Shown: positions 15,845 through 29,565 of the stretch, in pieces
Position numbering within the stretch: position 1 is the stretch's first letter
Layout of the letters: each line of letters begins with the position of its first letter
The notes under the pieces: model-generated
Database searches by the model: none
What the model saw: only the letters and a program-made list of their open reading frames with translations
Told to the model about the DNA's origin: nothing
Translations under genes and position numbers: made by a program
From: Paenarthrobacter sp. A20
GTDB taxonomy: Bacteria > Actinomycetota > Actinomycetes > Actinomycetales > Micrococcaceae
Length of the DNA: 64,000 nucleotides
NCBI RefSeq assembly: GCF_024168825.1
Contig: NZ_JALJWH010000001.1
Coordinates: 1,550,001 to 1,614,000 of the forward strand
Direction of reading: 5' to 3'

Positions 15845-17208
15845 GCTTTTTCCTTTTCCGGGGCGCCGTGTGGATCGTTGTCCAGGTCGCTGAGGCGCAA
15901 GCCCTTGGTTTCCTTGGCAAACATCACCGAGACCATGGAGATCAGGCCCATGACGGCGAGGTAGATGCCGATCGCATAGCCGGTGCCGAATGCGCTGTAG
16001 AGGGCCAGGGCGATGATCGGTGACAACGAGCCGGCGATCAGCGATGCCAGGTTATAGGCCACTGAGGTGCCGCTGTACCGGACGTCCGTGGGGAAAAGTT
16101 CGGAGAAGAACGCGCCGATCACCGAGCTGTACGCGGCGAAGATCAGCAGGCCGCCCACGGCGGCTGCAATGATTCCCCAGGTCTGTCCCGTATTGAGCAG
16201 GGCGAAGAACGCGAAGGCCCACACCATGGTGGCAATCGACGCTCCGATCAGGATGGGCTTCCGCCCTACCTTGTCCGCGTACAGCGCCAGGATGGGAATG
16301 GCGACGACGGCCACGCCCTGCCCGATCATGACGGCGGTGAGGCCTGTCTGCCGCTGCAACCCCATGATCTGGGTGACGTAGGTAATGATGAACAGCGAAT
16401 AGATGTAGAAGCCTGCGTTCTCGCCCATCCGGCTGCCGGTGGCGATGAGGATCTCGCGCCAGTTGCGGCGGAACAGGATGGTCAGCGGCATCTTCCGTTC
16501 CTTGTTGCCTTCGGCTTCGCGCTTGCGCTGTGCTTCCTTGAACAGCGGGGTTTCCTGGACGTAAAGCCGCAGGACGAGGCCAATGACTACCAGCAGTGCA
16601 GACAAACCGAACGCGATGCGCCAGCCCCATGCCAGGAACTCGCTCTCCGGCATGGTGGCGGCGAGGATGGCCAGGACGCCGGCAGCCATCAGGTTGCCCA
16701 GCGGTGGGCCCATGTTCGGCCACGAAGCCCAGAACGCGCGGCGGGCGCTTTCGTTGCTGTGCTCGGAGACGAGGAGTACCGCGCCGCCCCATTCGCCGCC
16801 GAGGGCAAATCCCTGAATCAAGCGGAGCAGCAGGAGGAGCAGGGGTGCTGCAAGGCCGATCGCTGCGTACGAAGGGATGAAGGCGATGAGGGTGGTGGCG
16901 ACACCCATGAGCATCAGGCTGGCCACCAGTGTTGCGCGCCGGCCGTGTTTGTCTCCCAGATGACCCAGGACTATGGCGCCGATGGGGCGTGCCAGGAAGC
17001 CGGCCGCGAACGTTCCGAGGGCCAGCATGGTGCCCACCAGGGGATCGTCGGTAGGGAAGTAGAGCTTGTTGAATACCAGCGCTGCGGCGGTGCCGTAGAG
17101 GAAGAAGTCGTACCATTCAACGGCCGTGCCGGCCAGGCTCGAAGCAGCCACCACGGGCAGGCTGGAGTGCTTCTGTTGCCGCAGTTCTGCTTTCTTCAAA
17201 TCGGTCAT
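15841..17208 (-). CDS. MFS transporter, metabolite:H+ symporter (MHS) type
   Basis: The 455-residue, 12-segment permease is of the MHS family. It has SLAGTAVEWYDFFLYGTAAAL in the first segment, the loop-2 signature GHLGDKHGRR and the ALGGEWGGAVLLVSEH block. Relatives import aromatic or dicarboxylic acids and betaines. The ATG at 17208 has AAAGGA 9 bases upstream and is preferred over a start 37 codons upstream, which would overlap the operator region. It opens the six-gene operon and is divergent from the GntR gene. Confidence 0.9.
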   Translation of the reverse strand: MTDLKKAELRQQKHSSLPVVAASSLAGTAVEWYDFFLYGTAAALVFNKLYFPTDDPLVGTMLALGTFAAGFLARPIGAIVLGHLGDKHGRRATLVASLMLMGVATTLIAFIPSYAAIGLAAPLLLLLLRLIQGFALGGEWGGAVLLVSEHSNESARRAFWASWPNMGPPLGNLMAAGVLAILAATMPESEFLAWGWRIAFGLSALLVVIGLVLRLYVQETPLFKEAQRKREAEGNKERKMPLTILFRRNWREILIATGSRMGENAGFYIYSLFIITYVTQIMGLQRQTGLTAVMIGQGVAVVAIPILALYADKVGRKPILIGASIATMVWAFAFFALLNTGQTWGIIAAAVGGLLIFAAYSSVIGAFFSELFPTDVRYSGTSVAYNLASLIAGSLSPIIALALYSAFGTGYAIGIYLAVMGLISMVSVMFAKETKGLRLSDLDNDPHGAPEKEKA

Positions 17209-17327
17209 TGTGGGAATCCTTTGCGAGTGGGAGCCGCGGAGCTTCTGTTGAGTCTGGCGGCCGGGCTCCCAGGAAAATTTGGGTATTTCCGATGCGTGAG
17301 CGGAGTCACTGAACAACACTGTAGACG

Positions 17328-17341
17328 GGTTGTATACAACC
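17328..17341. promoter_or_regulatory. GntR operator candidate, site 1
   Basis: GGTTGTATACAACC is a perfect 14-bp palindrome in the divergent region between the transporter and GntR genes, 120 bp upstream of the transporter start. FadR-branch GntR proteins often bind short TNGTNNNACNA-like palindromes, which this fits. A second GTATAC lies at 17400-17405. Confidence 0.65.
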
Positions 17342-17397
17342 TGTCTATATTTGAAGGAGAAGTTTTCAGGAACGTCCCGAACAGTCCTGAATGCAAC

Positions 17398-17407
17398 TCG
17401 TATACTG
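17398..17407. promoter_or_regulatory. GntR operator candidate, site 2, overlapping a -10
   Basis: TCGTATACTG contains the same GTATAC core as site 1, with centres 68 bp apart. It overlaps a good -10 hexamer, TATACT (17401-17406), 24 bp before the GntR start codon. This arrangement would allow autorepression. Confidence 0.5.
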
Positions 17408-17429
17408 GGCTACGCGAGAAAGGCTCTGC

Positions 17430-18071
17430 ATGATCCAGATGACCCCCGCTGCACAGTCGCAGCCAGAAGTGGCCTACCAGTGGATGAAAAGCTACATCGC
17501 AGCCCTGCCCCGTGAGGAAGAAACATTCCTCAACGAGGGAGTCCTGGCCAAGACCACGGGTACCTCACGAACCCCCGTGCGTGAGGCATTGCTGCGCCTT
17601 GAAGCCGAAGGATTCGTCAAGAGGATCCCGCACAAAGGCGCCTACGTGCCACCCATCTCCGACCCCGACGTACGCGCCATCCTGCAGGCACGGTCCGTGG
17701 TGGAGAAGTGGGCCGTCTCGGCAGTGGAAACCATGCTTGAGGCCCAGATCGATGCCTTCCAGCGCGTGATTGACCAGCAGCAGGAGGCCCGGGACGATCC
17801 CGCCAGGTTCATCGAGCTGGACACGGAATTCCACACGCTCATGGTCCGTGCCGGCGGCAACCCCGTACTCGCCGACTTCTACGCGTCGCTCCGGCAAAAA
17901 CAACTCAGGATCGGCGTCAAAGCCGTTACCCAGGGCACGGATCGAGCCGGGGACGTCCTGCGGGAACACCAACTGATCGTCGACGCGCTCCGCAGCCGAA
18001 GCCTGGACGCAGCGCACAAAGCCATCGACGAGCACCTCGATTCCACCCGCTTGGCAGTCATCGGGTACTAG
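17430..18071 (+). CDS. GntR family regulator (FadR/FCD subfamily)
   Basis: The 213-residue protein has an N-terminal winged helix (TFLNEGVLAKTTGTSRTPVREALLRLEAEGFVKRIPHKGA region, about residues 30-70) and an FCD ligand-binding domain with the metal-type pattern ELDTEFHTLMV and a late REHQLIVDAL histidine. The ATG at 17430 has AAAGG about 10 bases upstream; an ATG 13 codons earlier overlaps the putative promoter. It probably represses the divergent 17208-11958 operon in response to a pathway acid. Confidence 0.9.
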   Translation: MIQMTPAAQSQPEVAYQWMKSYIAALPREEETFLNEGVLAKTTGTSRTPVREALLRLEAEGFVKRIPHKGAYVPPISDPDVRAILQARSVVEKWAVSAVETMLEAQIDAFQRVIDQQQEARDDPARFIELDTEFHTLMVRAGGNPVLADFYASLRQKQLRIGVKAVTQGTDRAGDVLREHQLIVDALRSRSLDAAHKAIDEHLDSTRLAVIGY

Positions 18072-18147
18072 TCCTCGCTGTGCAGCTCCCGTTGCCGATC
18101 CCCATGGTTCATTATCACCGCAGGTCAACTGCGGTAGGGGCGACATG

Positions 18148-18169
18148 GTCTTGATCGAATCTTGAGCCA
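18148..18169. promoter_or_regulatory. Tandem 11-bp repeats upstream of the BcsB-like gene
   Basis: GTCTTGATCGA (18148-18158) is followed directly by ATCTTGAGCCA (18159-18169). The second unit differs by one base, and the first by three, from ATCTTGAGCAA, which occurs twice in perfect tandem at 23978-23999 before the diguanylate cyclase. Both lie upstream of transcription units of the same locus. An 11-bp period is typical of OmpR/PhoB-family direct-repeat sites. Confidence 0.55.
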
Positions 18170-18268
18170 ACTCAGCAATGCGCCTTGAGTTCGGTTCGGC
18201 AGTGTCTATGAGGTTGGCCTTGATCGGCTAACGGACACATTCGCTGCTAGTTACTCAGGACTGACATC

Positions 18269-20311
18269 GTGACCCAAACCCCTGCCGGACCACGCCCGCG
18301 CCTCCAAACCCGACCCCACCCGGTCAGGATCCTGCTCGCCTCTGCCGCAACCCTGGCGCTGGCCGCCGTTACCGCCCCTGGAGCAAGCGCTGAACCTGCA
18401 CCAGCGCAGGGAGCGGCCCTGCAGACCTCATCCAGCGTTTCGGCCCTCGCAGGCCAATCCGAGCAGATGGTGGTGGTGCCCGTGACGGCCGGCTTGGAAC
18501 CCACCCGGGTGAAGGGGACAATCGCGGTGTCGGGGAAGCCTGAGGGGATGGTCCGGGCCACGGTCAATGGCCGGATCATCCTCGAAAGCAACGCAGCAGC
18601 CACTGTTCCCCTCGACGAAGCAGTCAGCAGCGCCGACGTTGTTGGCCAGCAACTCTCCGTTGGACTGCAATACATTCCGGCAACGCAGACCATGTGCGTC
18701 CTGTCCAACTCCACGGCAACGCTCGGCAATCTGTCGGTTGACTTCAGCGGAACCGCCAAGGATCCCACCACCGTTGGCGAGTTCTTCCCGGCGTCCGTGC
18801 CCGCCGTCGTACTTCCCGTCCCGGCCGATCCCGGAGCAGATGTTTCCGCGGCCATCATGACCGCGTCGGCCGCCATGGCCCACCGCTACCCTGAGGCCAG
18901 CATCAGCGTGGTTCCGGACGCTGAACTCGCGGCCCGCACAGCCGGCCTGCCGGCAGGGAGCCGGATCATCAGCGTCGTCGCCGGCTCCGGGGACACCAAC
19001 ACACAGCTGACCGCTGCGGCCGGCCTTCCCCAACTCATCCTCAGCGGCCACGATGAACAACTCCGCACCGCAGCCCGGGCGTTCTCCAGCGATAAGACGG
19101 CGCTCGCGGTGACCTCCTCCGTCACCGGCCTTACCTCCGCGCTACCTGCCGCCCCCGGCCTGGTCCAGAGCCTCAAGGACCTCGGCAGCGCCACGCTCAA
19201 GCTCTCCGGCTACGGCACGCCGGAATCCTACGTCGGCGTTAGCCAGTCGCAGTTCGGCGGCCCGGTTTCCTCAGTGAAGGTCCAGCTCAAAGGCACCCAC
19301 ACAGCCGTCCCGGACAACGCCCATGCGCAGCTTTCGGTCTTCTGGAACGACTACCTGCTCGGCTCGAAAAACCTCGACGGCGGTGACACCTTCACGGTGG
19401 ACGCCGAGGTTCCAGCGGGGCAGCTCCAGGCGAAGAACGGCCTGCGGATCCGCCTCGCTGCGCTCCCGGCCGGCGGTGACTGCACCGGGCCCGCGGGTGT
19501 CATGCCCATGGAAGTCACCCTCGATACCGCGGGTAGCACCCTCACCGCCGTCCGGGGCGCTTCCACGAAGGCAGGCTTCGCACGCTTTCCCCAGGCATTG
19601 GGCCAGAGCGTTGCCGTGGCCTTCGGAGACGGCAACGCCCAGGCAAACACCGTCAACGCAGCGTCCCTGACAGCGTCCCTGCAGCGGGACAGTGCCACCT
19701 TGCTGGACACCCGCGTGGTGGGCCTGGATACCCTGGCAGGCTCCAGCGAGCCCGGGCTGGTAGTGGGCGCCACCGCCGAGGTGGCCAACAAGCTCTCGGC
19801 GCCCCTGCGGTTGGCGGAGTTCCGCACCATCTCTCCGTCCGACGTCGAATATGGCGTGGGCACTACGGCGCCGTTCGGCGTGCTGGAAGCGTTCGAGCAG
19901 GGCGGCCGCGACCTGTTGCTGCTCGGTGCGTGGGCGCCGGAGGGCGACGCAGCTGCGGCGTCCACGTTGCAGGCATCCCTGGTCTCCCATGTGGGTGGCG
20001 TTGAAGGCGGGTGGGCTTCCCTGTCCCGCAATCTCCTGGTGACCCAACCCTCGGGAACCCCGGTCCTGCTGGAAAGCAACGTACTGGTTCCGCAGAAGGC
20101 TGTTACCGACGACTACCGTCCCTATGCCTGGTGGATCGGCGGAGCTGTCCTGGTGCTCGGACTGGCCTTCGCACTCCGGACCGTGCTCATGAGGCGTCGT
20201 GCCAAGGAAGCACAGACATACGTGGACGCTGAACAGGCGGCAACGGAACGGGCCGAACAGGCAGAGCAGGCCGAACCGGCAGAGCAGGCCGAACAGGCAC
20301 ATGGCAACTAG
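18269..20311 (+). CDS. Secreted, membrane-anchored BcsB-like protein
   Basis: The 680-residue protein begins at GTG. It has a signal peptide (hydrophobic stretch near residues 20-38, cleavage near GASAEPA), a large extracytoplasmic part and a C-terminal membrane segment (WWIGGAVLVLGLAFALRTVL) followed by a basic stop and a Glu/Ala/Gln-rich tail. The extracellular part has a BcsB-like layout: MVRATVNGRIILES near the N-terminus, NDYLLGSKNL and VPAGQLQAKNGLRIRLAALP, then a DCTGPAG cysteine-containing loop. BcsB-type proteins hold the nascent polysaccharide next to the BcsA synthase. It is first of three overlapping genes ending in a BcsA-like GT2. The link to BcsB is by layout and context and needs a profile search. 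Confidence 0.7.
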   Translation: MTQTPAGPRPRLQTRPHPVRILLASAATLALAAVTAPGASAEPAPAQGAALQTSSSVSALAGQSEQMVVVPVTAGLEPTRVKGTIAVSGKPEGMVRATVNGRIILESNAAATVPLDEAVSSADVVGQQLSVGLQYIPATQTMCVLSNSTATLGNLSVDFSGTAKDPTTVGEFFPASVPAVVLPVPADPGADVSAAIMTASAAMAHRYPEASISVVPDAELAARTAGLPAGSRIISVVAGSGDTNTQLTAAAGLPQLILSGHDEQLRTAARAFSSDKTALAVTSSVTGLTSALPAAPGLVQSLKDLGSATLKLSGYGTPESYVGVSQSQFGGPVSSVKVQLKGTHTAVPDNAHAQLSVFWNDYLLGSKNLDGGDTFTVDAEVPAGQLQAKNGLRIRLAALPAGGDCTGPAGVMPMEVTLDTAGSTLTAVRGASTKAGFARFPQALGQSVAVAFGDGNAQANTVNAASLTASLQRDSATLLDTRVVGLDTLAGSSEPGLVVGATAEVANKLSAPLRLAEFRTISPSDVEYGVGTTAPFGVLEAFEQGGRDLLLLGAWAPEGDAAAASTLQASLVSHVGGVEGGWASLSRNLLVTQPSGTPVLLESNVLVPQKAVTDDYRPYAWWIGGAVLVLGLAFALRTVLMRRRAKEAQTYVDAEQAATERAEQAEQAEPAEQAEQAHGN

Positions 20312-21995
20312 CGTCGCCACCCGGCGCCGGGCTGCCCACCGGCAGCCGGCGCTGCGGGCCCTGGTGTTGCTGGCCCGGAAGGGCTGGGTGCGGCTCGGTG
20401 CCCCGGTGGTTGGCCGCAAGGTCCCGGGCACCAGGATCGTCGCGGTGGTTTCGCTGCTGGTGGGCTACATCGCATGCCTTTACACGATCGGCCACGGCAC
20501 CAACCTGGACTACTCCGACGCCCAAAGCCACCTGACCATCGCCCGGCGTATCTTCGACAGCAAGGCGCCCGGCTTTGAACAATTGGGCACCGTTTGGCTG
20601 CCCATGCCACACCTGCTGCTGGCACCGTTCGTGCTGAACATGTGGTTGTTCAGCACGGGCTGGGCTGCAGGAATCCTGGGTATCCTGGCGTTGTCCGCCA
20701 CCGCCACCGGTTTGTACTTGATCGCCGCCCGCCTCGGGTTGGGAAGGGCGGGGCGGCTGGCCGCTACCCTGGTGGTCCTGGCCAACCCGGCGGTCCTCTA
20801 CGTCTACACCACGGCGTTGACCGAGCCCGTGCTCATCATGTGCATCGTGGGAGGCATGGCCGGCCTGGCGCATTGGGCAACCAGCCGGCGCCGGATGAGT
20901 GCCGGCGAGCTGGCAGTCTTCGCCGGGATCCCATCGGCCGCCGCAGTGCTTTCCCGTTACGAGGGGTGGGCCTTGGTGATGACCGGAACGCTCTTTGTAC
21001 TGATCGTGGCCAAACGCCGCACCGGCGGGTGGCGGGAAGCCTTCGTTATGGCCGGCGGCTACGTGATGATCCCGGCCGCGGCAGTGCTTTGGTGGATCTC
21101 CTATAACTGGGCCATCTACGGCAACCCGCTGGAGTTCATGTTTGGGCAATACTCCGCTTACGCGCAGCAAAAGAACATTACCGACGGCGGACTGTTGCCA
21201 ACCAAGGGCAACCTGGGGCTGACGCTGACTACTTTCCACTGGTCGCTGCTGGAGACGGTCGGCGTCGTTGTCCTCGCCTTGGCGGCGTGCGGCGCCGTCG
21301 TACTGGTCTTCAGGCGCGGCTTCGCCAACAGCACTTTGCTGGTGGCGGTGACCGGCAGCGCTTATGCTTTTGCGCTGCTGAGCCTGTTCCTGGGCCAGAC
21401 CGCCATCAACAACGATCACTCGCTGCCATCCACGTGGTGGAACAACCGCTTTGCGCTGACGGCCTTGCCGCTGGTGGCCATCCTGGTGGCCGTGTTCGTC
21501 GAGGAAATCACCAGGCCCGCACGGCTCAGGCTTTGGCTGACCGGCGCCTTGCTGGCAGGACTCGTGGTGCAGAACGTGTGGTGGAGCGAGGACCCAACTG
21601 GGCGGCTTGCCGTGCTGGCGGAAGGGCGGATGTCCGCTGAATCCACCACGAATTCCACGGCCGCGGCGCGCTGGCTCAACGAGCACTACGAGTCCGGCGG
21701 AATCCTGATGGACGAGAGTGCCCGGGGCAATGCGGTGCTTCCAGTGATGGGTATTCCGCTCAAGGAGATCTACAACCGAGCTTCCGGGGATTACTTCGGG
21801 CCGGCGCTGGAGGACCCCGCGAAGTACGCACAGTGGGTCTTCGTCAACGTTGAAGCAGGTGCAGGTGCGCGGGACTCCGGGCCCACGGACCTGGTGTACC
21901 AGGCGATCGGCAAGAACCCGTCCTTCAACGTCCGCTATTCCGTTGCCTTTTCCACCCCCACCCACCGGATCTATGAAAGGTCCTCCGACCGATGA
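20301..21995 (+). CDS. Integral membrane glycosyltransferase (GT39/ArnT-like)
   Basis: The 564-residue polytopic membrane protein has about 10-12 hydrophobic segments. The first extracytoplasmic loop, GTNLDYSDAQSHLTIARRIFD, contains the acidic pair expected of GT-C enzymes (PMT/ArnT type), which use lipid-linked sugars. A C-terminal soluble domain (about residues 430-564) follows the last segment. The ATG at 20301 lies inside the end of the preceding gene (11-base overlap), and the stop overlaps the next start (ATGA). It could decorate the polymer made by the adjacent synthase. Confidence 0.75.
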   Translation: MATSVATRRRAAHRQPALRALVLLARKGWVRLGAPVVGRKVPGTRIVAVVSLLVGYIACLYTIGHGTNLDYSDAQSHLTIARRIFDSKAPGFEQLGTVWLPMPHLLLAPFVLNMWLFSTGWAAGILGILALSATATGLYLIAARLGLGRAGRLAATLVVLANPAVLYVYTTALTEPVLIMCIVGGMAGLAHWATSRRRMSAGELAVFAGIPSAAAVLSRYEGWALVMTGTLFVLIVAKRRTGGWREAFVMAGGYVMIPAAAVLWWISYNWAIYGNPLEFMFGQYSAYAQQKNITDGGLLPTKGNLGLTLTTFHWSLLETVGVVVLALAACGAVVLVFRRGFANSTLLVAVTGSAYAFALLSLFLGQTAINNDHSLPSTWWNNRFALTALPLVAILVAVFVEEITRPARLRLWLTGALLAGLVVQNVWWSEDPTGRLAVLAEGRMSAESTTNSTAAARWLNEHYESGGILMDESARGNAVLPVMGIPLKEIYNRASGDYFGPALEDPAKYAQWVFVNVEAGAGARDSGPTDLVYQAIGKNPSFNVRYSVAFSTPTHRIYERSSDR

Positions 21996-23950
21996 CTTCC
22001 TCTTCGCACCTTGCGGACGCCACGCTCAACCGGCAATCGATCGGACAGGCACTGCTCGCCGCCGGATTGGTAACACCGGAACAGTTGCAGCGGGCACTTG
22101 ACCGGGCAGTGAGCGAAGGTGGATTGCTGGGCCGGCACCTCATCCTGGAAGCCGGCCTGGACCGGCGTCGGATTTATGAAGTCCTGGCTCAGCATTGGGA
22201 GGCGCCACTGGTGGACCTGGTTGCCGAACCGGCCGACGACCGGCTCATGGAGATGCTCGGCTACAGCGGACTGGGTGAACCACGTTGGCTGCCATGGCGG
22301 ATGGAGGGAGACCTCCTGACAGTTGCCACGGCGGTGGCTCCGTCGGCGGCCATTGCGCACGAGGCGGCCCTGACGTTCGGGGCCAAGGACGTCGTCTTCC
22401 GGACCACCACTGACTGGGACATCAACCAGTCCATCCAGCGGTCCTTCCGCCGCCACCTCCTCTACGAGTCCGCCGAGCGCCTTGCCGAAGAACGGCCCGG
22501 AGAGTCCGCCCGCACCGCCCTGACACAATGGCAGCGCTACCTTCCGGTGGTCCTGGTCCTGGGAATGGTGGCCGCCTTCGTGCTCTCGCCGCTGACTGCG
22601 ATCATCGTGTTGTTGGCCGCTGCGAACATCGTGTTCCTGGTGAGCATCGGCTTCAAGACACTTGCCAGCCTTCGCAGCCCTTTCGACCGTTTGCATGACG
22701 CCGCGGTGGCCAAGGCCAGGGATAAGGAGAGGGCCGGCCGCGGGTTGCCTCCCTTGGCGGAGGAACGGGTTCCCGATGGGGAGTTGCCCGTCTACACCAT
22801 CCTGGTGCCCGTGTTCCGGGAAGCCAACATCATCGATAAGCTGCTGACCAACCTGGGCCAGTTGGACTATCCGCGGTCCAAGTTGGATGTCCTGGTCCTC
22901 CTGGAAGAGGACGACGCCGAGACCATCGCCGCAGCGAAAGCCTCACGGCCGCCGGAGTATGTCCGCATCCTCATCGTGCCCAAGGGCGATCCGCAGACCA
23001 AGCCCAGGGCCTGCAATTACGGGCTCACGTTCGCCCGCGGCGAGTATGTGGTCATTTACGACGCCGAGGACCGCCCGGAGCCCGGCCAGCTCCGCGCATC
23101 CATAGCCGCGTTCAAGCAGGACGAATTCGAGCGGAAACACCTTAACCCCAAGCGCAAGCCACTCATCTGCGTCCAAGCCGCGCTCAACTATTTCAATGCA
23201 GACCAAAACGTCCTCACCCGGATGTTCACCATCGAGTACACCCACTGGTTCGACTCGATGCTCCCTGGCCTGGACAACTCCGGAATCCCGCTGCCGCTGG
23301 GCGGCACGTCCAACCACTTTGTCACCGCCCTGCTGAAGGAAGTCGGCGCGTGGGATCCGTGGAACGTCACGGAAGACGCCGACCTGGGCCTCCGGGCTGC
23401 AGTGGACGGATACCGCGTGGGCGTCATCAATTCCACTACGTGGGAGGAAGCTTGCTCGCAGGTGCCGGCGTGGATCAAGCAACGCACGCGCTGGATCAAG
23501 GGCTACATGGTGACCTCGGCAGTCAATACGAGGAACACCCTGCGCTACATCAAGAGCACCGGGATTGCCGGCGCCGTCGGATTCCTCGGCCTGATCCTGG
23601 GAACACCCCTGGCTTTCCTGGCCTACCCGCTGGTTGTGGGGTTCACCGTAGTGACGTACATCGGGTACGACATCGTCGGCCTGGTCCTGCCCGAATGGCT
23701 CCTGGTAGGAGGCGTGGTCTCCATGCTGTTCGGAAACGCCATGATGATTGTTGTCTCCGGGGTTGCCACGCTCCGCCGCCACGGATGGCGGATCGCGATC
23801 TTCGCCCTGCTCAACCCGTTCTATTGGGTGCTGCACTCAGTGGCTGCGTGGCGGGCGGCATGGCAGATGCTCACCAGCCCGCACAAGTGGGAAAAGACGC
23901 CGCACGGGCTGGAAGCGGAGTACCACGACGACGGCCACTGGACTGCCTAG
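21992..23950 (+). CDS. Processive GT2 glycosyltransferase with N-terminal MshEN-type domain
   Basis: The 652-residue protein has a soluble N-terminus with two MshEN-like motifs, SIGQALLAAGLVTPEQLQRAL (about 16-36) and LLGRHLILEAGLDRRRIYEV (about 45-64). Such motifs bind cyclic di-GMP in MshE and in NfrB-type synthases. Two membrane segments follow (about 180-215), then a BcsA-like GT-A domain with VYTILVPVFRE (near 266), EEDDAE, the DAED motif near 357, TEDADLG near 460 and QRTRW near 496. Several C-terminal membrane segments complete it. All catalytic motifs of processive synthases are present. No PilZ domain is seen, so the MshEN part probably replaces it. GGEEF and GGDEF-EAL proteins are encoded just downstream. 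Confidence 0.88.
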   Translation: MTSSSHLADATLNRQSIGQALLAAGLVTPEQLQRALDRAVSEGGLLGRHLILEAGLDRRRIYEVLAQHWEAPLVDLVAEPADDRLMEMLGYSGLGEPRWLPWRMEGDLLTVATAVAPSAAIAHEAALTFGAKDVVFRTTTDWDINQSIQRSFRRHLLYESAERLAEERPGESARTALTQWQRYLPVVLVLGMVAAFVLSPLTAIIVLLAAANIVFLVSIGFKTLASLRSPFDRLHDAAVAKARDKERAGRGLPPLAEERVPDGELPVYTILVPVFREANIIDKLLTNLGQLDYPRSKLDVLVLLEEDDAETIAAAKASRPPEYVRILIVPKGDPQTKPRACNYGLTFARGEYVVIYDAEDRPEPGQLRASIAAFKQDEFERKHLNPKRKPLICVQAALNYFNADQNVLTRMFTIEYTHWFDSMLPGLDNSGIPLPLGGTSNHFVTALLKEVGAWDPWNVTEDADLGLRAAVDGYRVGVINSTTWEEACSQVPAWIKQRTRWIKGYMVTSAVNTRNTLRYIKSTGIAGAVGFLGLILGTPLAFLAYPLVVGFTVVTYIGYDIVGLVLPEWLLVGGVVSMLFGNAMMIVVSGVATLRRHGWRIAIFALLNPFYWVLHSVAAWRAAWQMLTSPHKWEKTPHGLEAEYHDDGHWTA

Positions 23951-23977
23951 GGAGCGCACCTTGGTGGAGTACAGCTG

Positions 23978-23999
23978 ATCTTGAGCAAATCTTGAGCAA
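23978..23999. promoter_or_regulatory. Perfect tandem 11-bp repeats upstream of the diguanylate cyclase
   Basis: ATCTTGAGCAA occurs at 23978-23988 and again at 23989-23999, exactly one helical turn apart, 75 bp before the preferred start at 24075. The same element in degenerate form is at 18148-18169 upstream of the polysaccharide unit. This looks like a shared operator for an OmpR-type response regulator. Confidence 0.65.
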
Positions 24000-24074
24000 A
24001 TGCCGCATCGGGATTGAGTAAGCCCCGAGACACTGAACTCAATGCCGATGGATGACCAGCTGAGGGGGTTGGAC

Positions 24075-25253
24075 ATGGTGCTCGATGCGTTTTCGGTAAG
24101 AGTTGCCCTGGGCGTGGTTACAGTGACTCTCCTGGTGCTGTTCTGTACCTCATTCCACCGCACGCGCTCGCCGTATGCAGGCTGGTGGAGCCTGGCCTTG
24201 CTGGAGTTCATGGTGGGCAATGCTGCTTTCCTTCTGAACGGCACCCCTCACCAACAGTGGGCCAACCCCTTGGGCAACGTCCTGGTGGTGGCGGGTGCAT
24301 TCAGCGTTTGGGCTGGGGCGAAGACCCTGCGGGACCAGAAAGCGCCGCCGTGGCAGTTGGCCATTGGACCAGCCGTAACAGCTATCGCTTCCATCCTGGA
24401 GAGCCCCGCAACCAATGTGTGGTCCGGAGGGTTCGTGTACCTGGCCATGATGACCGTGGGCATTTCGTTGGCCGCCTACGATCTGTGGTTCATCAAGTCC
24501 TCGCACTCCCAAGTCCACAAAGCGCTGTCCATTGCCGCAGGCCTGTTGGCCATCTATTACATGGGCCGCTGGATGGTTTATGCATTGGAGGGACCGGCGA
24601 GCCACGCCTTCACCACCTACTTTGGCCCCGGACCCTCCGCGCTGATATCCATGGTTCTTCTGGTCACCGTGTCTTTCAGCATGACAGCGCTCACCAGCGA
24701 TCAGCTCATCAGGGGCCTCAAGGAACGCGCAGCCCGGGATCACCTCACCGGCCTCCTCAACCGCGGCACCTTCCTGGACTTGGCCGGTACTGAACTGAAC
24801 CGACTGCACTCCACGGGATCCGGCGCGGCTGTAGTCCTGGCCGACCTGGACCACTTCAAAGCTGTCAACGACGAATACGGCCATGGTGCCGGGGATGTGG
24901 CCCTGCGGGCCTTCGCCGAAGCCTGCGGCGCTTCGGTCAGGTCCACGGACCTCATCGGACGCTACGGCGGCGAAGAGTTCATTCTGTTCCTGCCCGGGGC
25001 CACCCAGGATCGTGCCGAAAGCATCGCAGCGGAAATCAGCCGCCGCATGGCAGCCACACCGGCGCCTGAAGGCGTCTCCTTCCCCACCATCAGCTACGGA
25101 GTCACCTCCAGCATCCCTGCCGGCGCCGATCTGACATTCATGATCGAAGTAGCGGACGCAGCCCTCTACAGCGCCAAAGCACAAGGAAGAAACCGGATTG
25201 TAGGAGCTGACCGCCTCGAGGCGGCAATTATCGCGGATGAGGCACGATCATGA
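24075..25253 (+). CDS. Membrane diguanylate cyclase (GGDEF)
   Basis: The 392-residue protein has about six N-terminal hydrophobic segments (residues 5-210) acting as an unnamed sensor module, then a complete GGDEF domain: DHLTGLLNRGTFLD, LADLDHFKAVNDEYGHGAGD and RYGGEEFILFLPG. The active-site GGEEF (about 298-302) is intact, and the inhibitory RSTD motif (from Arg289) lies exactly five residues before it, so product inhibition is expected. The ATG at 24075 has TGAGGGGG 8 bases upstream and is preferred over 24042. It makes cyclic di-GMP, presumably for the upstream synthase. The stop overlaps the next start (ATGA). Confidence 0.92.
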   Translation: MVLDAFSVRVALGVVTVTLLVLFCTSFHRTRSPYAGWWSLALLEFMVGNAAFLLNGTPHQQWANPLGNVLVVAGAFSVWAGAKTLRDQKAPPWQLAIGPAVTAIASILESPATNVWSGGFVYLAMMTVGISLAAYDLWFIKSSHSQVHKALSIAAGLLAIYYMGRWMVYALEGPASHAFTTYFGPGPSALISMVLLVTVSFSMTALTSDQLIRGLKERAARDHLTGLLNRGTFLDLAGTELNRLHSTGSGAAVVLADLDHFKAVNDEYGHGAGDVALRAFAEACGASVRSTDLIGRYGGEEFILFLPGATQDRAESIAAEISRRMAATPAPEGVSFPTISYGVTSSIPAGADLTFMIEVADAALYSAKAQGRNRIVGADRLEAAIIADEARS

Positions 25254-25753
25254 CCTTCAACGAACTCACCACCAGGATCCAGGTCCAGCACACCCAGGAG
25301 CTATCCGCCTTCCGGCAAAACATCACCAGTGCTCCCTACATGGCGGGAACACCCACCTCGCTGAATGCGGACCGCCGCTCGGTCAGGATGGGGCCTGTTC
25401 AGTCGGTGGAGGATGGAAATGCCAACCTGACCATAGTGGCCGACGTCGAAGGCCTCGCCTGGTTCACGGCCGACAAAGGCCTTCTGGGAAGCTGCATCAC
25501 AGTATCCATCGCGGGACACCGCAGGAATACCGGCACCCGCGTCCACCTTCCGCTGGCCGAATGCGACGCTTGGATCGAGGCCATCCTCGGCGGATCCTGG
25601 ATCACCCACGTGTACCGCGCCGGCAAGCGGGTGGAGCCTGACGGCAGGCTGGACATTGCCTCCTACCGGCTCTTCCTGGACGAACGCCGCAATCCCGTGG
25701 ACAAACCTCAGGCTGTCGCCGACACCACGCTGCGGCGCCTGGAAGAATCGTGA
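25250..25753 (+). CDS. Unknown 167-aa protein between two c-di-GMP enzymes
   Basis: I do not recognise this protein. It is soluble, with no signal peptide. The N-terminal helix FNELTTRIQVQHTQELSAFRQ is followed by an apparently beta-rich core (LTIVADVEGLAWFTAD, then GSCITVSIAGHRRNTGTRVHLPL). Both ends overlap neighbours by 4 bases (ATGA), so it is translationally coupled to the cyclase before it and the GGDEF-EAL protein after it. A small beta-barrel c-di-GMP effector or an adaptor is possible, but the PilZ signature RXXXR...DXSXXG is not seen. Confidence 0.7.
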   Translation: MTFNELTTRIQVQHTQELSAFRQNITSAPYMAGTPTSLNADRRSVRMGPVQSVEDGNANLTIVADVEGLAWFTADKGLLGSCITVSIAGHRRNTGTRVHLPLAECDAWIEAILGGSWITHVYRAGKRVEPDGRLDIASYRLFLDERRNPVDKPQAVADTTLRRLEES

Positions 25754-27171
25754 CCAGCACCAAGCCTCGAAGGCTGGTCTCAACTGACGATGCCCGCATC
25801 GAAAAACTGGAACGGCACGTCCAGGCCCTGATGCAAGAGCTCCACCAAGCACGTTATGAGCAGCGGCGGGAGGCGCTCACCGATGCGCTCACCGGGCTCG
25901 GCAACCGTTTGGCCTTGGTGGACGCGTTCACCGCGGCCCGCGATTCCGCTGCCCGGGGCGCCGCTCCGCCTGTGCTACTCCTGCTGAACCTGGACAGTTT
26001 CAAAGCACTAAAGAACTCTGCCGGCCATGCCGCGGGTGACCAGGTTCTGGTCACCGTTGCGATGCGCATACAGTCGGCTGTCCGGGAGAACGACGTCGTT
26101 ACCCGCCTGGGTGGCGACGAATTCGCCGTGCTGTTGCCCGCCACGCCCCAAACCCGGGCCACCGCCGTCGGCAACCGGATCCTGGCCGCGCTGGAACCCG
26201 CCATCGATCTCGGGAACAACAGTGTCCGCTGCGGTGCCAGCATGGGCCTGCGGATCGCAGAGCCGCACCACACCCTCGAGGACCTCCTCCAGGAAGCCGA
26301 TTTTGCGGTCGACGAGTCCAAGAGCGAGGGACGTAGCAAGCTCAAGGTGTTCGACCCTGCCACCCTGCACGCCCGTCAGCTCCAGCGGCAGATTGTGGGC
26401 GAACTTCGCGAAGCGATCCGCTCGGATCAGCTGGTTCTCTTCTATCAACCGATCGTGGAACTGGCGAGTGGAAGGTTAGAGGGCTGCGAGGCCTTGGTCC
26501 GCTGGAACCACCCCGTACATGGCCTCATCATGCCGGACCAGTTCATCCCTGTTGCCGAAGCGACGGGGCTCATCGCGGAGCTGGGCAGGTGGGTCCTGCG
26601 TACCGCCGTGGGTCAACTCCGGCATTGGCGGGACAACCCGGCCACCGCACACCATGACTTTTCCATGCGCATCAATGTTTCAGCCGCGGACCTTCAAAGC
26701 CTGGAATTCGTGGACGACGTCAGCGAGGCCCTGGCGGAGGAAAGCCTGACCCCGGAATCCCTGGTCCTGGAGTTGACCGAGAGCGCCATCATCCAGAACA
26801 ACGAACTGGACCGATACACCCTGGCAAGCCTGCACAGGCTTGGCGTGGGAATGGAGATCGACGACTTCGGTGCCGGCTACTCGTCCATGGGCTACCTGAG
26901 GAAACTCCCCGTGGACCGGGTAAAAGTGGACCGGCAGTTCGTGAAGGACCTCGGAAAAGACCCTTCCCAGCTCAAGTTCCTTGCCGCCATCCAGGAGGTC
27001 ATCCGATCGTGCGGGCTTGAAGGCGTTTGGGAAGGCATCGAGACCGCCGACGAGGCAGAGGCGCTGCGGAGCATCGGCTGCGCAAGCGGCCAAGGCTATT
27101 ACTTCGGCAGGCCTTTGCCGGAGGGCGAATTCACGGCGCAGCTGGCGCGGCAGACTGTTTGGCCGGCTTAA
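25750..27171 (+). CDS. Bifunctional GGDEF-EAL cyclic di-GMP enzyme
   Basis: The 473-residue soluble protein starts with a helical segment (15-45), then a GGDEF domain and an EAL domain. GGDEF 121-125 is intact, with an RxxD I-site at 112-115. The EAL domain has CEALVRW (near 246), INVSAADL, LELTESAI, DDFGAGYSS, VKVDRQFVKDL and EGIET, so metal-binding and general-base residues look complete. Both synthesis and hydrolysis of cyclic di-GMP are possible. It starts at GTG overlapping the preceding stop. A 63-bp palindromic repeat follows, 6 bp after the stop. Confidence 0.93.
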   Translation: MTSTKPRRLVSTDDARIEKLERHVQALMQELHQARYEQRREALTDALTGLGNRLALVDAFTAARDSAARGAAPPVLLLLNLDSFKALKNSAGHAAGDQVLVTVAMRIQSAVRENDVVTRLGGDEFAVLLPATPQTRATAVGNRILAALEPAIDLGNNSVRCGASMGLRIAEPHHTLEDLLQEADFAVDESKSEGRSKLKVFDPATLHARQLQRQIVGELREAIRSDQLVLFYQPIVELASGRLEGCEALVRWNHPVHGLIMPDQFIPVAEATGLIAELGRWVLRTAVGQLRHWRDNPATAHHDFSMRINVSAADLQSLEFVDDVSEALAEESLTPESLVLELTESAIIQNNELDRYTLASLHRLGVGMEIDDFGAGYSSMGYLRKLPVDRVKVDRQFVKDLGKDPSQLKFLAAIQEVIRSCGLEGVWEGIETADEAEALRSIGCASGQGYYFGRPLPEGEFTAQLARQTVWPA

Positions 27172-27176
27172 ACAAG

Positions 27177-27239
27177 CAACGCGGGGTCACTTAGGGCCCA
27201 TCCCGAAGGGATTTATGGGCTGTAAGTGACCCCGCGTTG
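27177..27239. repeat. 63-bp palindromic intergenic repeat, copy 2
   Basis: Same element as 11884-11946, with five substitutions in 63 bases by hand alignment. The outer 17 bases of each arm are identical in the two copies; the differences are in the inner stem and loop region. It lies between the convergent GGDEF-EAL and purL genes and is the only element there that could end transcription from both sides. Confidence 0.9.
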
Positions 27240-27255
27240 CTTTAGGCGGGGAGGA

Positions 27256-29565
27256 TCAGCCGAAGTACTTCGGCAGGGTGGCTTCGTGTGCTTCGCGGAG
27301 AGCATCCAGGGAGAGCTCGTCCACGCCGTTGATCTCCAGCTTTCCGCCGGCGGCGTCAACAACGCCGATCCGGAGGTGGGCGAAGCCGCGGGCGGTGCAC
27401 ATGTCCTTGAACCGGACTTCCTCGGAGCGGGGAACGGACACGATCGCACGTGCCTGTGACTCGGAGAAGAGCGCGGTGAACAGGTCCACGCCGTCGCGCT
27501 CCATGAGTTCCTCAAGGGCGATGCGGGCGCCGACGCCGTAGCGCAGCGAGGACTCCACCAAGGCAGCCGCGAGGCCACCCTCGGAGAGGTCGTGTGCTGC
27601 GTCAACCATGCCGTCGCGGGAAGCGTTGATCAGGATCTCGCCCAACGCGCGCTCTGCTGCGAGGTCAACCTTCGGCGGCAGGCCACCGAGGTGTCCGCGG
27701 AGGTTTGACCATTCCGAACCGTCCAACTCTGCTGCGGTGGTGCCCAGCAGGTAGATGGCCTGGCCGTCCTCGCGCCAGCCCGACGGCGTGCGGCGGGCGA
27801 CGTCGTCGAGCTTGCCCAGGACAGCCACCACAGGGGAGGGGTGGATGGGCGTGGTGCCGGTCTGGTTGTACAGGGACACGTTGCCGCCCGTGACCGGGAT
27901 GCCGAGTTCCATGCAGGCGTCGGAGAGGCCACGGATGGCTTCTGCGAGCTGCCACATGACGTCCGGGTCCTCGGGGGAACCGAAGTTCAGGCAGTCGCTG
28001 ACGGCCATCGGAACAGCGCCGGACGTGGCGACGTTGCGGTAGGCCTCGGCCAAGGCAAGCTGTGCACCCTGGTACGGCTCGAGGTAGGTGTAGCGGCCGT
28101 TGGCGTCGGTGGCCAGGGCAACGCCCAGGCCGGTTTCCTCGTCAACGCGGACCACACCGGAGTCGTCCGGGAAGGCCATGGCAGTGTTGCCGCCCACGTA
28201 GCGGTCGTACTGGTTGGTGATCCAGGCCTTGCTGCACATGTTCGGCGATGCCACGAGCTCGGTGACGGCTGCGGCGAGCTCCGAGGGAGCCGAAGGACGG
28301 CCGGCGTCCTCGACGGAACCGGTGAAGGTGTTGGCCTGAACCGAGTCCTGCCACTCCGGGCGGGCGAACGGACGGTCGTAGACCGGTCCGTCGTGCGCTA
28401 CGGTGCGGGGATCGACGTCGACGATTACGTCGCCTTCCCAGGTGATGATGAGGCGACCGGTGTCGGTAACCTCACCCAGCCAGGAGTACTCCACGGCCCA
28501 CTTGTCCATCACGGCTTCGAACGCGGCGATGTTCTCCGGGGTCACGACGGCCATCATGCGTTCCTGCGACTCGGACATGAGGATTTCGCCCGGAGTCAGC
28601 GTGGGGTCGCGCAGCAGGACGGAGGTCAGCTCCACCTGCATGCCGCCGTCGCCATTGGAAGCGAGCTCGGACGTGGCACAGGAAATACCTGCAGCGCCGA
28701 GGTCCTGGATGCCTTCAACCAAGGAGCCCTTGAAGAGCTCCAGGCAGCACTCGATGAGGACCTTCTCAGCGAAGGGGTCACCCACCTGGACGGCCGGACG
28801 CTTGGAGGGCTTGGTGTCATCGAAGGACTCCGAGGCCAGCACCGAAGCGCCGCCGATGCCGTCGCCACCCGTGCGGGCACCGAACAGGACAACCTTGTTG
28901 CCCTTGCCGGAGGCGTTGGCCAGGCGGATGTCCTCGTGGCGCATGACGCCCACGGCCAGTGCGTTCACCAGCGGGTTGCCCTGGTAGACGGAGTCGAAGA
29001 CCATTTCGCCGCCGATGTTCGGCAGGCCAAGGCAGTTGCCGTAGCCGCCGATGCCGGCAACGGCGCCATGCATGACGCGGGCCGTGTCCGGGTGGTCGAT
29101 CGCACCGAAGCGCAACGGGTCCATCACGGCCACCGGGCGGGCACCCATGGAGATGATGTCGCGGACGATGCCGCCGATGCCGGTAGCGGCACCCTGGTAC
29201 GGCTCAACGAACGACGGCGAGTTGTGGGACTCGATCTTGAAGGTCACGGCCCAGCCGTCGCCCAGGTTGGTGACGCCGGCGTTCTCGCCGATGCCCACCA
29301 GCATGTCCTTCTTCATTTCCTCGGTGACCTTCTCGCCGAACTGGCGGAGGTGGTTCTTGGAGGACTTGTAGGAGCAGTGTTCGCTCCACATGACGGAGTA
29401 CATGGCCAGCTCGGCGCCGGTGGGGCGGCGGCCAAGGACCTTGACGATCTCGTCGAATTCGTTCTGCTTCAGGCCCAGTTCGGCCCACGGGAGTTCCGTG
29501 TCCGGGGTCTTGGCCGCGTGCTCAACGGTGTCGATGTTGAACTTCTTGGTGGTTTCCGTGGTCAC
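27256..29565 (-). CDS. purL: Phosphoribosylformylglycinamidine synthase subunit II
   Basis: The 769-residue PurL of the small type acts with PurS and PurQ to amidate FGAR to FGAM in purine synthesis, using ATP and ammonia from PurQ. Visible features are [12 protein letters not shown], the glycine-rich [13 protein letters not shown] and [20 protein letters not shown], two AIR-synthase-like halves and [15 protein letters not shown]. The length is as expected for actinobacterial PurL. The GTG start overlaps the purQ stop (GTGA). It is last in the purSQL operon. Confidence 0.97.

Follow-up and report, generated by a model that had tools for sequence, protein, structure and literature searches.

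Among polysaccharide synthases that respond to cyclic di-GMP (c-di-GMP), BcsA of the BcsA/BcsB cellulose synthase senses the nucleotide by a C-terminal PilZ domain; BgsA of Sinorhizobium, a c-di-GMP-controlled glycosyltransferase of family 2 (GT2) without PilZ, binds it by a C-terminal tail, with no MshEN domain reported in the available part of the paper (PMC5567048); and the Escherichia coli exopolysaccharide synthase NfrB joins a GT2 domain to a C-terminal MshEN domain, has a local diguanylate cyclase (DgcJ) and is partnered by NfrA (outer membrane) and YbcH. MshEN is known from the ATPases MshE, PilB and PilF, and the main text of Wang 2016 says that it can occur fused to a glycosyltransferase, and nothing further. 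The only N-terminal MshEN-type GT2 that we found described is Sfz2/Sfz1 of stalk-forming Zetaproteobacteria, where an EpsE-like type II secretion domain (IPR007831) precedes a C-terminal GT2 domain with TED and QxxRW, and a BcsB-like gene is adjacent; in the available part of that report the authors discuss the N-terminal domain as a possible part of translocation, not as MshEN, and describe no GT-C partner and no adjoining cyclase or phosphodiesterase (PMC8250860). Sfz2 and BgsA are likened to our synthase by description only. In Ferriphaselus, an XagB-like protein (CDS10) is paired with a BcsB-like one (CDS9) (PMC4643136), and XagB of Xanthomonas is a putative glycosyltransferase of an exopolysaccharide operon; deletion of xagB reduced the elevated biofilm seen in an rpfG mutant and left the wild type unaffected (PMC3609779). 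At the level of titles and listings, no paper was found on such a system in Arthrobacter or Paenarthrobacter, and a c-di-GMP-gated actinobacterial reading of MshEN-GT2 proteins was not found in print. Here, we describe a six-gene locus of Paenarthrobacter sp. A20 within a 64,000-nucleotide stretch (GCF_024168825.1, NZ_JALJWH010000001.1, positions 1,550,001 to 1,614,000, forward strand; hereafter, the window), in which a BcsA-like GT2 synthase with an N-terminal MshEN domain follows BcsB-like and GT-C-like genes and precedes genes for a diguanylate cyclase (DGC), a protein of unknown family (u167) and a GGDEF-EAL protein. On balance, and by a modest degree, we favor reading it as a BcsA/BcsB-type polysaccharide locus that would be gated by c-di-GMP through MshEN and served by the local cyclase/phosphodiesterase unit. 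The observations of an earlier, preliminary description of this locus are confirmed; its interpretation is partly supported.

The synthase matches two GT2 families (PF13632, 81 bits; PF13641, 79 bits), and alignment places DAED, TED and QRTRW at residues 357-360, 460-462 and 497-501, the motifs being those that the preliminary description named. With DAED, TED, QxxRW and membrane helices around the GT-A domain, it is of the processive BcsA-like type, processivity being predicted from sequence. Residues 199-647 of a structure model have a BcsA-like fold (structural search); the match list of this model was filled by the synthase body and is silent on the MshEN part. The protein is neither a BcsA cellulose synthase (CelA TIGR03030, 30.7 bits; cut-off, 699.1) nor an NfrB (PRK11234, 21.4 bits against 1170, with MshEN N-terminal); comparison bore out that the NfrB domain is C-terminal, as had been stated. 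Ahead of this body, NF053729 matches residues 17-67 (38.8 bits; cut-off, 38) and PF05157 residues 71-154 (32.4 bits; cut-off, 23.1), and the proposed profile check thus upheld the N-terminal MshEN domain. Because two curated cut-offs are passed and all 10 members of the N-terminal alignment match NF053729 (E ≤0.01), the assignment is unlikely to be due to chance. We take IPR007831, the domain named in Sfz2, to be this MshEN/T2SSE_N family. A profile of ten family N-termini matches the MshEN domains of PilF GSPII (E = 6.6e-52) and VcMshE (E = 3.6e-19), so that the domain is by profile the one fused to ATPases in MshE, PilB and PilF, and alignment with the NfrB MshEN region gives 27% identity over 107 columns. 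The model has the MshEN layout, judged by secondary structure alone, with a four-helix N-subdomain (helices 5-23, 29-42, 46-54 and 58-68) and then a mixed C-subdomain (strands 99-105, 108-113 and 133-138, with helices). Purifying selection acts on the N-terminal bundle: the ratio of nonsynonymous to synonymous rates (dN/dS) was 0.05-0.12, against 0.02-0.04 for the catalytic domain (six within-clade pairs; one dS, 2.49, near saturation). PilZ, reported absent from the synthase, was found neither there (Pfam search) nor in the whole genome (domain search), which has one MshEN domain, on this synthase, and five GGDEF matches, including two in the locus. Since the genome has one MshEN and no PilZ, the synthase is the best candidate target of c-di-GMP, in a search that did not extend to other receptor types.

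The two motifs of the domain are SIGQALLAAGLVTPEQLQRALDRA (motif I, residues 16-39) and LLGRHLILEAGLDRRRIYEVLAQH (motif II, residues 45-68). Tested against the consensus for c-di-GMP-binding MshEN, two motifs (R/K/L)LGxx..LxxxLxxQ, the window protein fits at one of the four first and last positions: S16 stands for Arg and A39 and H68 for Gln, while L45 is acceptable because the extended consensus from PilF GSPII-B has Leu at position 1 of motif II (PMC11731258). Retained are the third-position glycines (G18 and G47) and the hydrophobic contacts I17, L32, L36, L46, I61 and L65; at the tenth position of motif II, Gly is replaced by A54. Because the motif test fails, the protein is assigned as MshEN and not as c-di-GMP-binding MshEN, and its site is, as judged from these residues, partly eroded. 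The preliminary description would have given up its reading had the binding arginines and leucines been missing; the loss is found at the Arg positions and not at the Leu and Gly positions. The family was surveyed in 124 aligned proteins (the window and 123 homologues, the best-scoring of longer lists with 8000 candidates scored, biased to Actinobacteria; eight ATPase rows, P0062-P0069, were dropped beforehand). All four positions fit in 15, and the window is among 3 with only the start of motif II fitting; P0089 is an example of a relative whose motifs are intact. Gln ends motif I in 81/124 and motif II in 96/124. Within the first 120 residues, 63 proteins lack the relaxed motif of Wang 2016, 52 have it once and 9 have it at least twice. 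Within residues 45-68 (window positions 22124-22195), R48 (91/124), H49 (96/124), R58 (118/124) and Y62 (113/124) are conserved across the family yet lie outside the described MshEN consensus.

Direct gating by c-di-GMP had been proposed; as first worded it is not supported, three of the four key first and last positions being missing, and further points count against it. Both site glutamines are replaced and the Arg of motif I is Ser. The window synthase has no copy of the relaxed Wang 2016 motif, of which NfrB has two, and the NfrB construct that bound contains a further motif at 691. PilF GSPII-B binds c-di-GMP at 6 nM with Lys/Leu replacing Arg (PMC11731258); in that domain Q190E+Q218E abrogates binding, single changes costing 158- and 77-fold. 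PilF GSPII-A, which does not bind and lacks both Gln, required the restoration of one Arg and both Gln, in a shortened construct, before binding became measurable (PMC12002112). GSPII-A is thus a precedent for a domain that is folded and non-binding, and the MshEN of the Arthrobacter/Paenarthrobacter clade could likewise be an interaction or autoinhibitory module (with, for example, the BcsB complex or the DGC as partner); we hold this to be a serious but minority prospect, as we do its corollary that c-di-GMP, if it acts, does so through transcription or another receptor. The distribution of the changes fits such a module, Ala at 39 occurring in 30/124 proteins, all within the Arthrobacter-type cluster of the tree order, and His at 68 in 5, the window included; so does modelled helix 1, which extends N-terminally as in GSPII-A (residues 1-12 have pLDDT, the model confidence score, below 50). 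Yet most relatives in that cluster retain Q68, a residue also borne by the relative in L006, and the window keeps the hydrophobic and Gly positions whose changes are the costliest in VcMshE (more than tenfold for hydrophobic changes, at most about fivefold for Arg9/Gln32). NfrB, with PLG...R as motif I, tolerates missing motif I polar residues, its MshEN region binding c-di-GMP with a dissociation constant of about 1 μM (PMC8669469), and the signatures of the adjoining DGC and EAL proteins stay intact. The fixed way in which polar positions changed inside a conserved pocket, together with reported binding of cGAMP by MshEN (PMC5013675), could instead point to another ligand, such as another cyclic dinucleotide or a nucleotide sugar; positive evidence for any such ligand was not found and the adjacency of a DGC and a phosphodiesterase favors c-di-GMP, which makes this improbable. 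Direct gating of the synthase by c-di-GMP we regard as plausible, the scales tipping slightly toward it.

The fusion itself is widespread. A search with the MshEN N-terminus by itself yields 46 proteins, of which 38 carry GT2 domains and 8 are ATPases, and most of the best 120 matches of a profile search carry PF05157 with GT2 domains; those named include Paenarthrobacter, Glutamicibacter, Rathayibacter, Subtercola, Nocardioides, Georgenia and others. Three relatives (P0048, P0148 and P0149) are labelled "glycosyltransferase XagB" by JGI, a label that is the whole of the link to XagB. Among 394 genomes of the class, 32 have a match at E ≤1e-100; 9 of these matches include the MshEN part, as their alignment begins at model position ≤9. 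N-terminal MshEN-GT2 fusions are common in Actinobacteria, and because of this, and because the Sfz2 order with its BcsB-like neighbor is in print, the architecture is not new, contrary to the novelty first suggested for it.

The DGC and the GGDEF-EAL protein encoded downstream of the synthase have the intact signatures first ascribed to them. The DGC has RSTD-N5-GGEEF, a GGEEF motif with its I-site, and RxxD-N5-GGEEF is found in 13/13 copies examined. It probably arose by duplication of a common cyclase, since relatives at E ≤1e-60 occur in 59/61 genomes of the genus and a 61% identical paralogue lies in the same genome (G000:C1:748814-749965). The GGDEF-EAL protein, a probable phosphodiesterase by its sequence, has no hydrophobic segment (hydropathy) and shows 7/7 signature patterns, from a set that we take to be that of EAL domains, in the window and in 11/11 Paenarthrobacter-type loci. 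Between them, u167 has, as first noted, no Pfam or NCBIfam family, and no solved relative was found at E ≤10; the named ones of its 23 homologues are from Paenarthrobacter and Arthrobacter. Genome G425 also has a u167 paralogue (46% identity; L120, 9812-11102) beside a sortase-like open reading frame (ORF) and a large repetitive surface protein, both named by sequence inspection only; this 19-kb stretch has no match to the window DGC or GGDEF-EAL protein.

A tandem repeat element, CTTGA-N6-CTTGA, often with a third TTGA about 22 bp further on, precedes both parts of the locus. It is found before the BcsB-like gene in 8/8 aligned upstream regions (the window and 7 of 11 loci) and before the DGC gene in 13/13, one being G425, which has no synthase. 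In the whole genome, CTTGANNNAATCTTGA occurs exactly at five sites and with a mismatch at a sixth (reversed control, 0); two of the exact sites are at the locus, where the longer element pattern has its sole two exact matches. The 61 genomes of the genus hold 66 exact sites, spread over 28 of them (control, 1), and 42 of these sites belong to the nine genomes that have the local DGC. All seven survey genomes with both modules on one contig have a site ahead of the DGC and another at the distance that fits the BcsB start, BcsB itself being seen only for the window and G431 (L168). The other exact sites in the window genome (L157, L158 and L159) lie before a pair of LAL-type LuxR regulators (in L159), themselves candidates for the regulator bound at the element, before a 94-amino-acid (aa) ORF with a divergent Hpt-like gene (below the Pfam cut-off) and before a 64-aa ORF followed by a DUF1206 gene. 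Of 29 loci around sites in other genomes, 10 have a homologue of element-linked genes or BcsB nearby; the remaining 19 have none, and one of these has a weak GntR match only. The five-site set looks like a regulon, with the element as a candidate operator that supports co-regulation of both modules, and the 91-bp gap between the GT2 and DGC genes, in which the conserved element lies, suggests a promoter there. As the element precedes each module, two co-regulated units fit better than one six-gene operon. A simple scan found no terminator between GT2 and DGC, which does not establish a single transcript. Control by a c-di-GMP riboswitch was rejected, the two Rfam matches in 17000-28000 both being implausible and below the gathering score.

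The synthase block and the DGC unit are separable modules. Conservation of the six-gene order, which had been proposed as a check, is complete in the 11/11 Paenarthrobacter-type loci with both flanks long enough (L001, which ends inside the DGC, is left out; L013/L109 and L010/L119 are the same genomes under two ids, so that locus and genome counts are not independent). Paenarthrobacter aurescens TC1 is among the carriers of the locus (L003). Of the 61 genomes of the genus, 11 have the GT2 and 9 the local DGC (≥81% identity), always next to u167; 8 of these 9 also have the GT2, and the contig of G440 breaks within the DGC. G430, G444 and G447 have the GT2 and only a 53-54% identical DGC relative elsewhere, and BcsB-GTC-GT2 stands without an adjoining DGC unit in L009-L014, L019 and L111. 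The claim that the synthase has its own supply and removal enzymes is not supported as worded, and several findings tell against the favored reading of the locus: Pseudarthrobacter-type genomes have the synthase and lack the DGC-u167-GGDEF/EAL unit; G425 (L118, G425:C20:228500-248000) has MFS-GntR-DGC-u167-GGDEF/EAL-PurL and no synthase block; in the neighbors at L017 and L022, 4/7 and 1/7 EAL patterns are unmatched (ends set by BLAST), and the GGDEF-EAL proteins of L020 and L022 lack the GGDEF pattern; and at ≤2 mismatches the longer element pattern is hardly enriched (54 against 43 in the control), so that only exact or near-exact sites carry weight. The occurrence of either module alone would also suit a locus whose parts are neighbors by history, with a constitutive synthase and a DGC unit that serves some other target or the c-di-GMP pool of the whole cell. 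We think this unlikely: the same rare element precedes both units, and in the module-B tree the G425 unit groups with L006 and L008, both synthase-bearing (support 1.0); the position of G425 in the PurL tree is only weakly supported (0.745 and 0.245). Because the unit nests with these synthase-bearing loci, late loss in G425 is likelier than long independence, and the simpler reading is that G425 lost the synthase block, perhaps by recombination between two repeat elements. GGDEF genes are also found near the synthase in other arrangements than in the window, with GGDEF-EAL and DGC genes downstream in Tersicoccus (L022) and a GGDEF-EAL gene upstream in Glutamicibacter (L017).

All six ORFs lie on the forward strand where they had first been placed (Table 1). 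The BcsB, GTC and GT2 genes overlap one another, and the u167 gene overlaps each of its neighbors by 4 bp. The BcsB-like protein, likewise as first named, matches PF03170 (24.1 bits; cut-off, 21; Pfam search), as do 6/9 orthologues at E ≤0.1, and has hydrophobic segments at 18-36 and 618-636 (hydropathy), the latter a C-terminal membrane anchor; match and anchor together make it a member of the BcsB family, and a profile search at E ≤1 retrieved no solved relative, no solved BcsB among them. The GT-C-like assignment of the second protein is half borne out: PMT_2 is matched by 3/10 orthologues (best E, 1.1e-7) and not by the window copy, which has 7 hydrophobic segments (hydropathy) and no solved relative at E ≤1. 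Its homologue adjoins the GT2 in L009-L014, L017, L019, L022, L110 and L111; in L023, L028 and L112-L116, none was found next to the MshEN-bearing GT2. The GTC gene may start at ATG 20301 rather than at the listed GTG, which would reduce the overlap with BcsB from 113 to 11 bp. The C-terminus of the BcsB-like protein is a Glu/Ala/Gln-rich repeat (window 20199-20311) that spans the listed GTG.

Table 1. Features of the Paenarthrobacter sp. A20 locus (window coordinates)
Feature	Position	Strand	Length	Basis or remark
BcsB-like extracytoplasmic subunit	18269..20311	+	680 aa	PF03170, hydropathy
GT-C/PMT_2-like multi-span membrane protein	20199..21995	+	598 aa	PMT_2 in orthologues, 7 hydrophobic segments
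BcsA-like GT2 synthase with N-terminal MshEN domain	21992..23950	+	652 aa	
MshEN_N subdomain, GT2 residues 13-70	22028..22201	+		NF053729, modelled helices, motif comparison
MshEN_C subdomain, GT2 residues 71-154	22202..22453	+		PF05157, 32.4 bits
GT2 catalytic domain (DAED, TED, QRTRW)	22772..23521	+		PF13632/PF13641, alignment
DGC, membrane N-terminus, GGEEF and I-site RSTD	24042..25253	+	403 aa	PF00990, 132 bits
u167, protein of unknown family	25250..25753	+	167 aa	No Pfam/NCBIfam match
GGDEF-EAL protein, intact EAL signature	25750..27171	+	473 aa	PF00563, 244 bits; PF00990, 124 bits
Tandem repeat element, copy 1, CTTGATCGAATCTTGAG...CTTGAG	18150..18190	+		Upstream of BcsB-like gene; candidate operator
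Tandem repeat element, copy 2, CTTGAGCAAATCTTGAG...TTGAG	23980..24015	+		Upstream of DGC gene; exact site

In the favored explanation, a BcsA/BcsB-type complex would make a secreted polysaccharide. The GT2 would polymerize a sugar nucleotide and extrude the chain, which the BcsB-like protein would guide outside the membrane and which is probably decorated on the outer face by the GT-C/PMT_2-like protein. The N-terminal MshEN domain, on the cytoplasmic side and presumably descended from a c-di-GMP-binding ancestor, would most likely still gate the synthase, at weakened affinity. A second predicted transcription unit (membrane DGC, u167 and GGDEF-EAL protein) would set the local c-di-GMP level, the same tandem repeat element before each unit tying the separable modules together. 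A more specific proposal, which we put forward tentatively and consider rather doubtful, is that in Arthrobacter-type actinobacteria an inherited MshEN sensor of c-di-GMP on the BcsA/BcsB/GT-C synthase was re-tuned to a low-affinity or altered-ligand gate (motif I without Arg and Gln, motif II LLGRH...Q or H) and that a probable duplicate DGC and a phosphodiesterase were placed adjacent under the same operator. If true, the re-tuned sensor and shared operator would form a two-module circuit in which transcription is coupled to allostery. Characterizing one such system would reveal how control works in the family of N-terminal MshEN-GT2 proteins, with its XagB-labelled relatives and Sfz2, and the natural gradation of motifs from intact to eroded, together with the single-module genomes, makes the link between site, enzyme and output directly testable.

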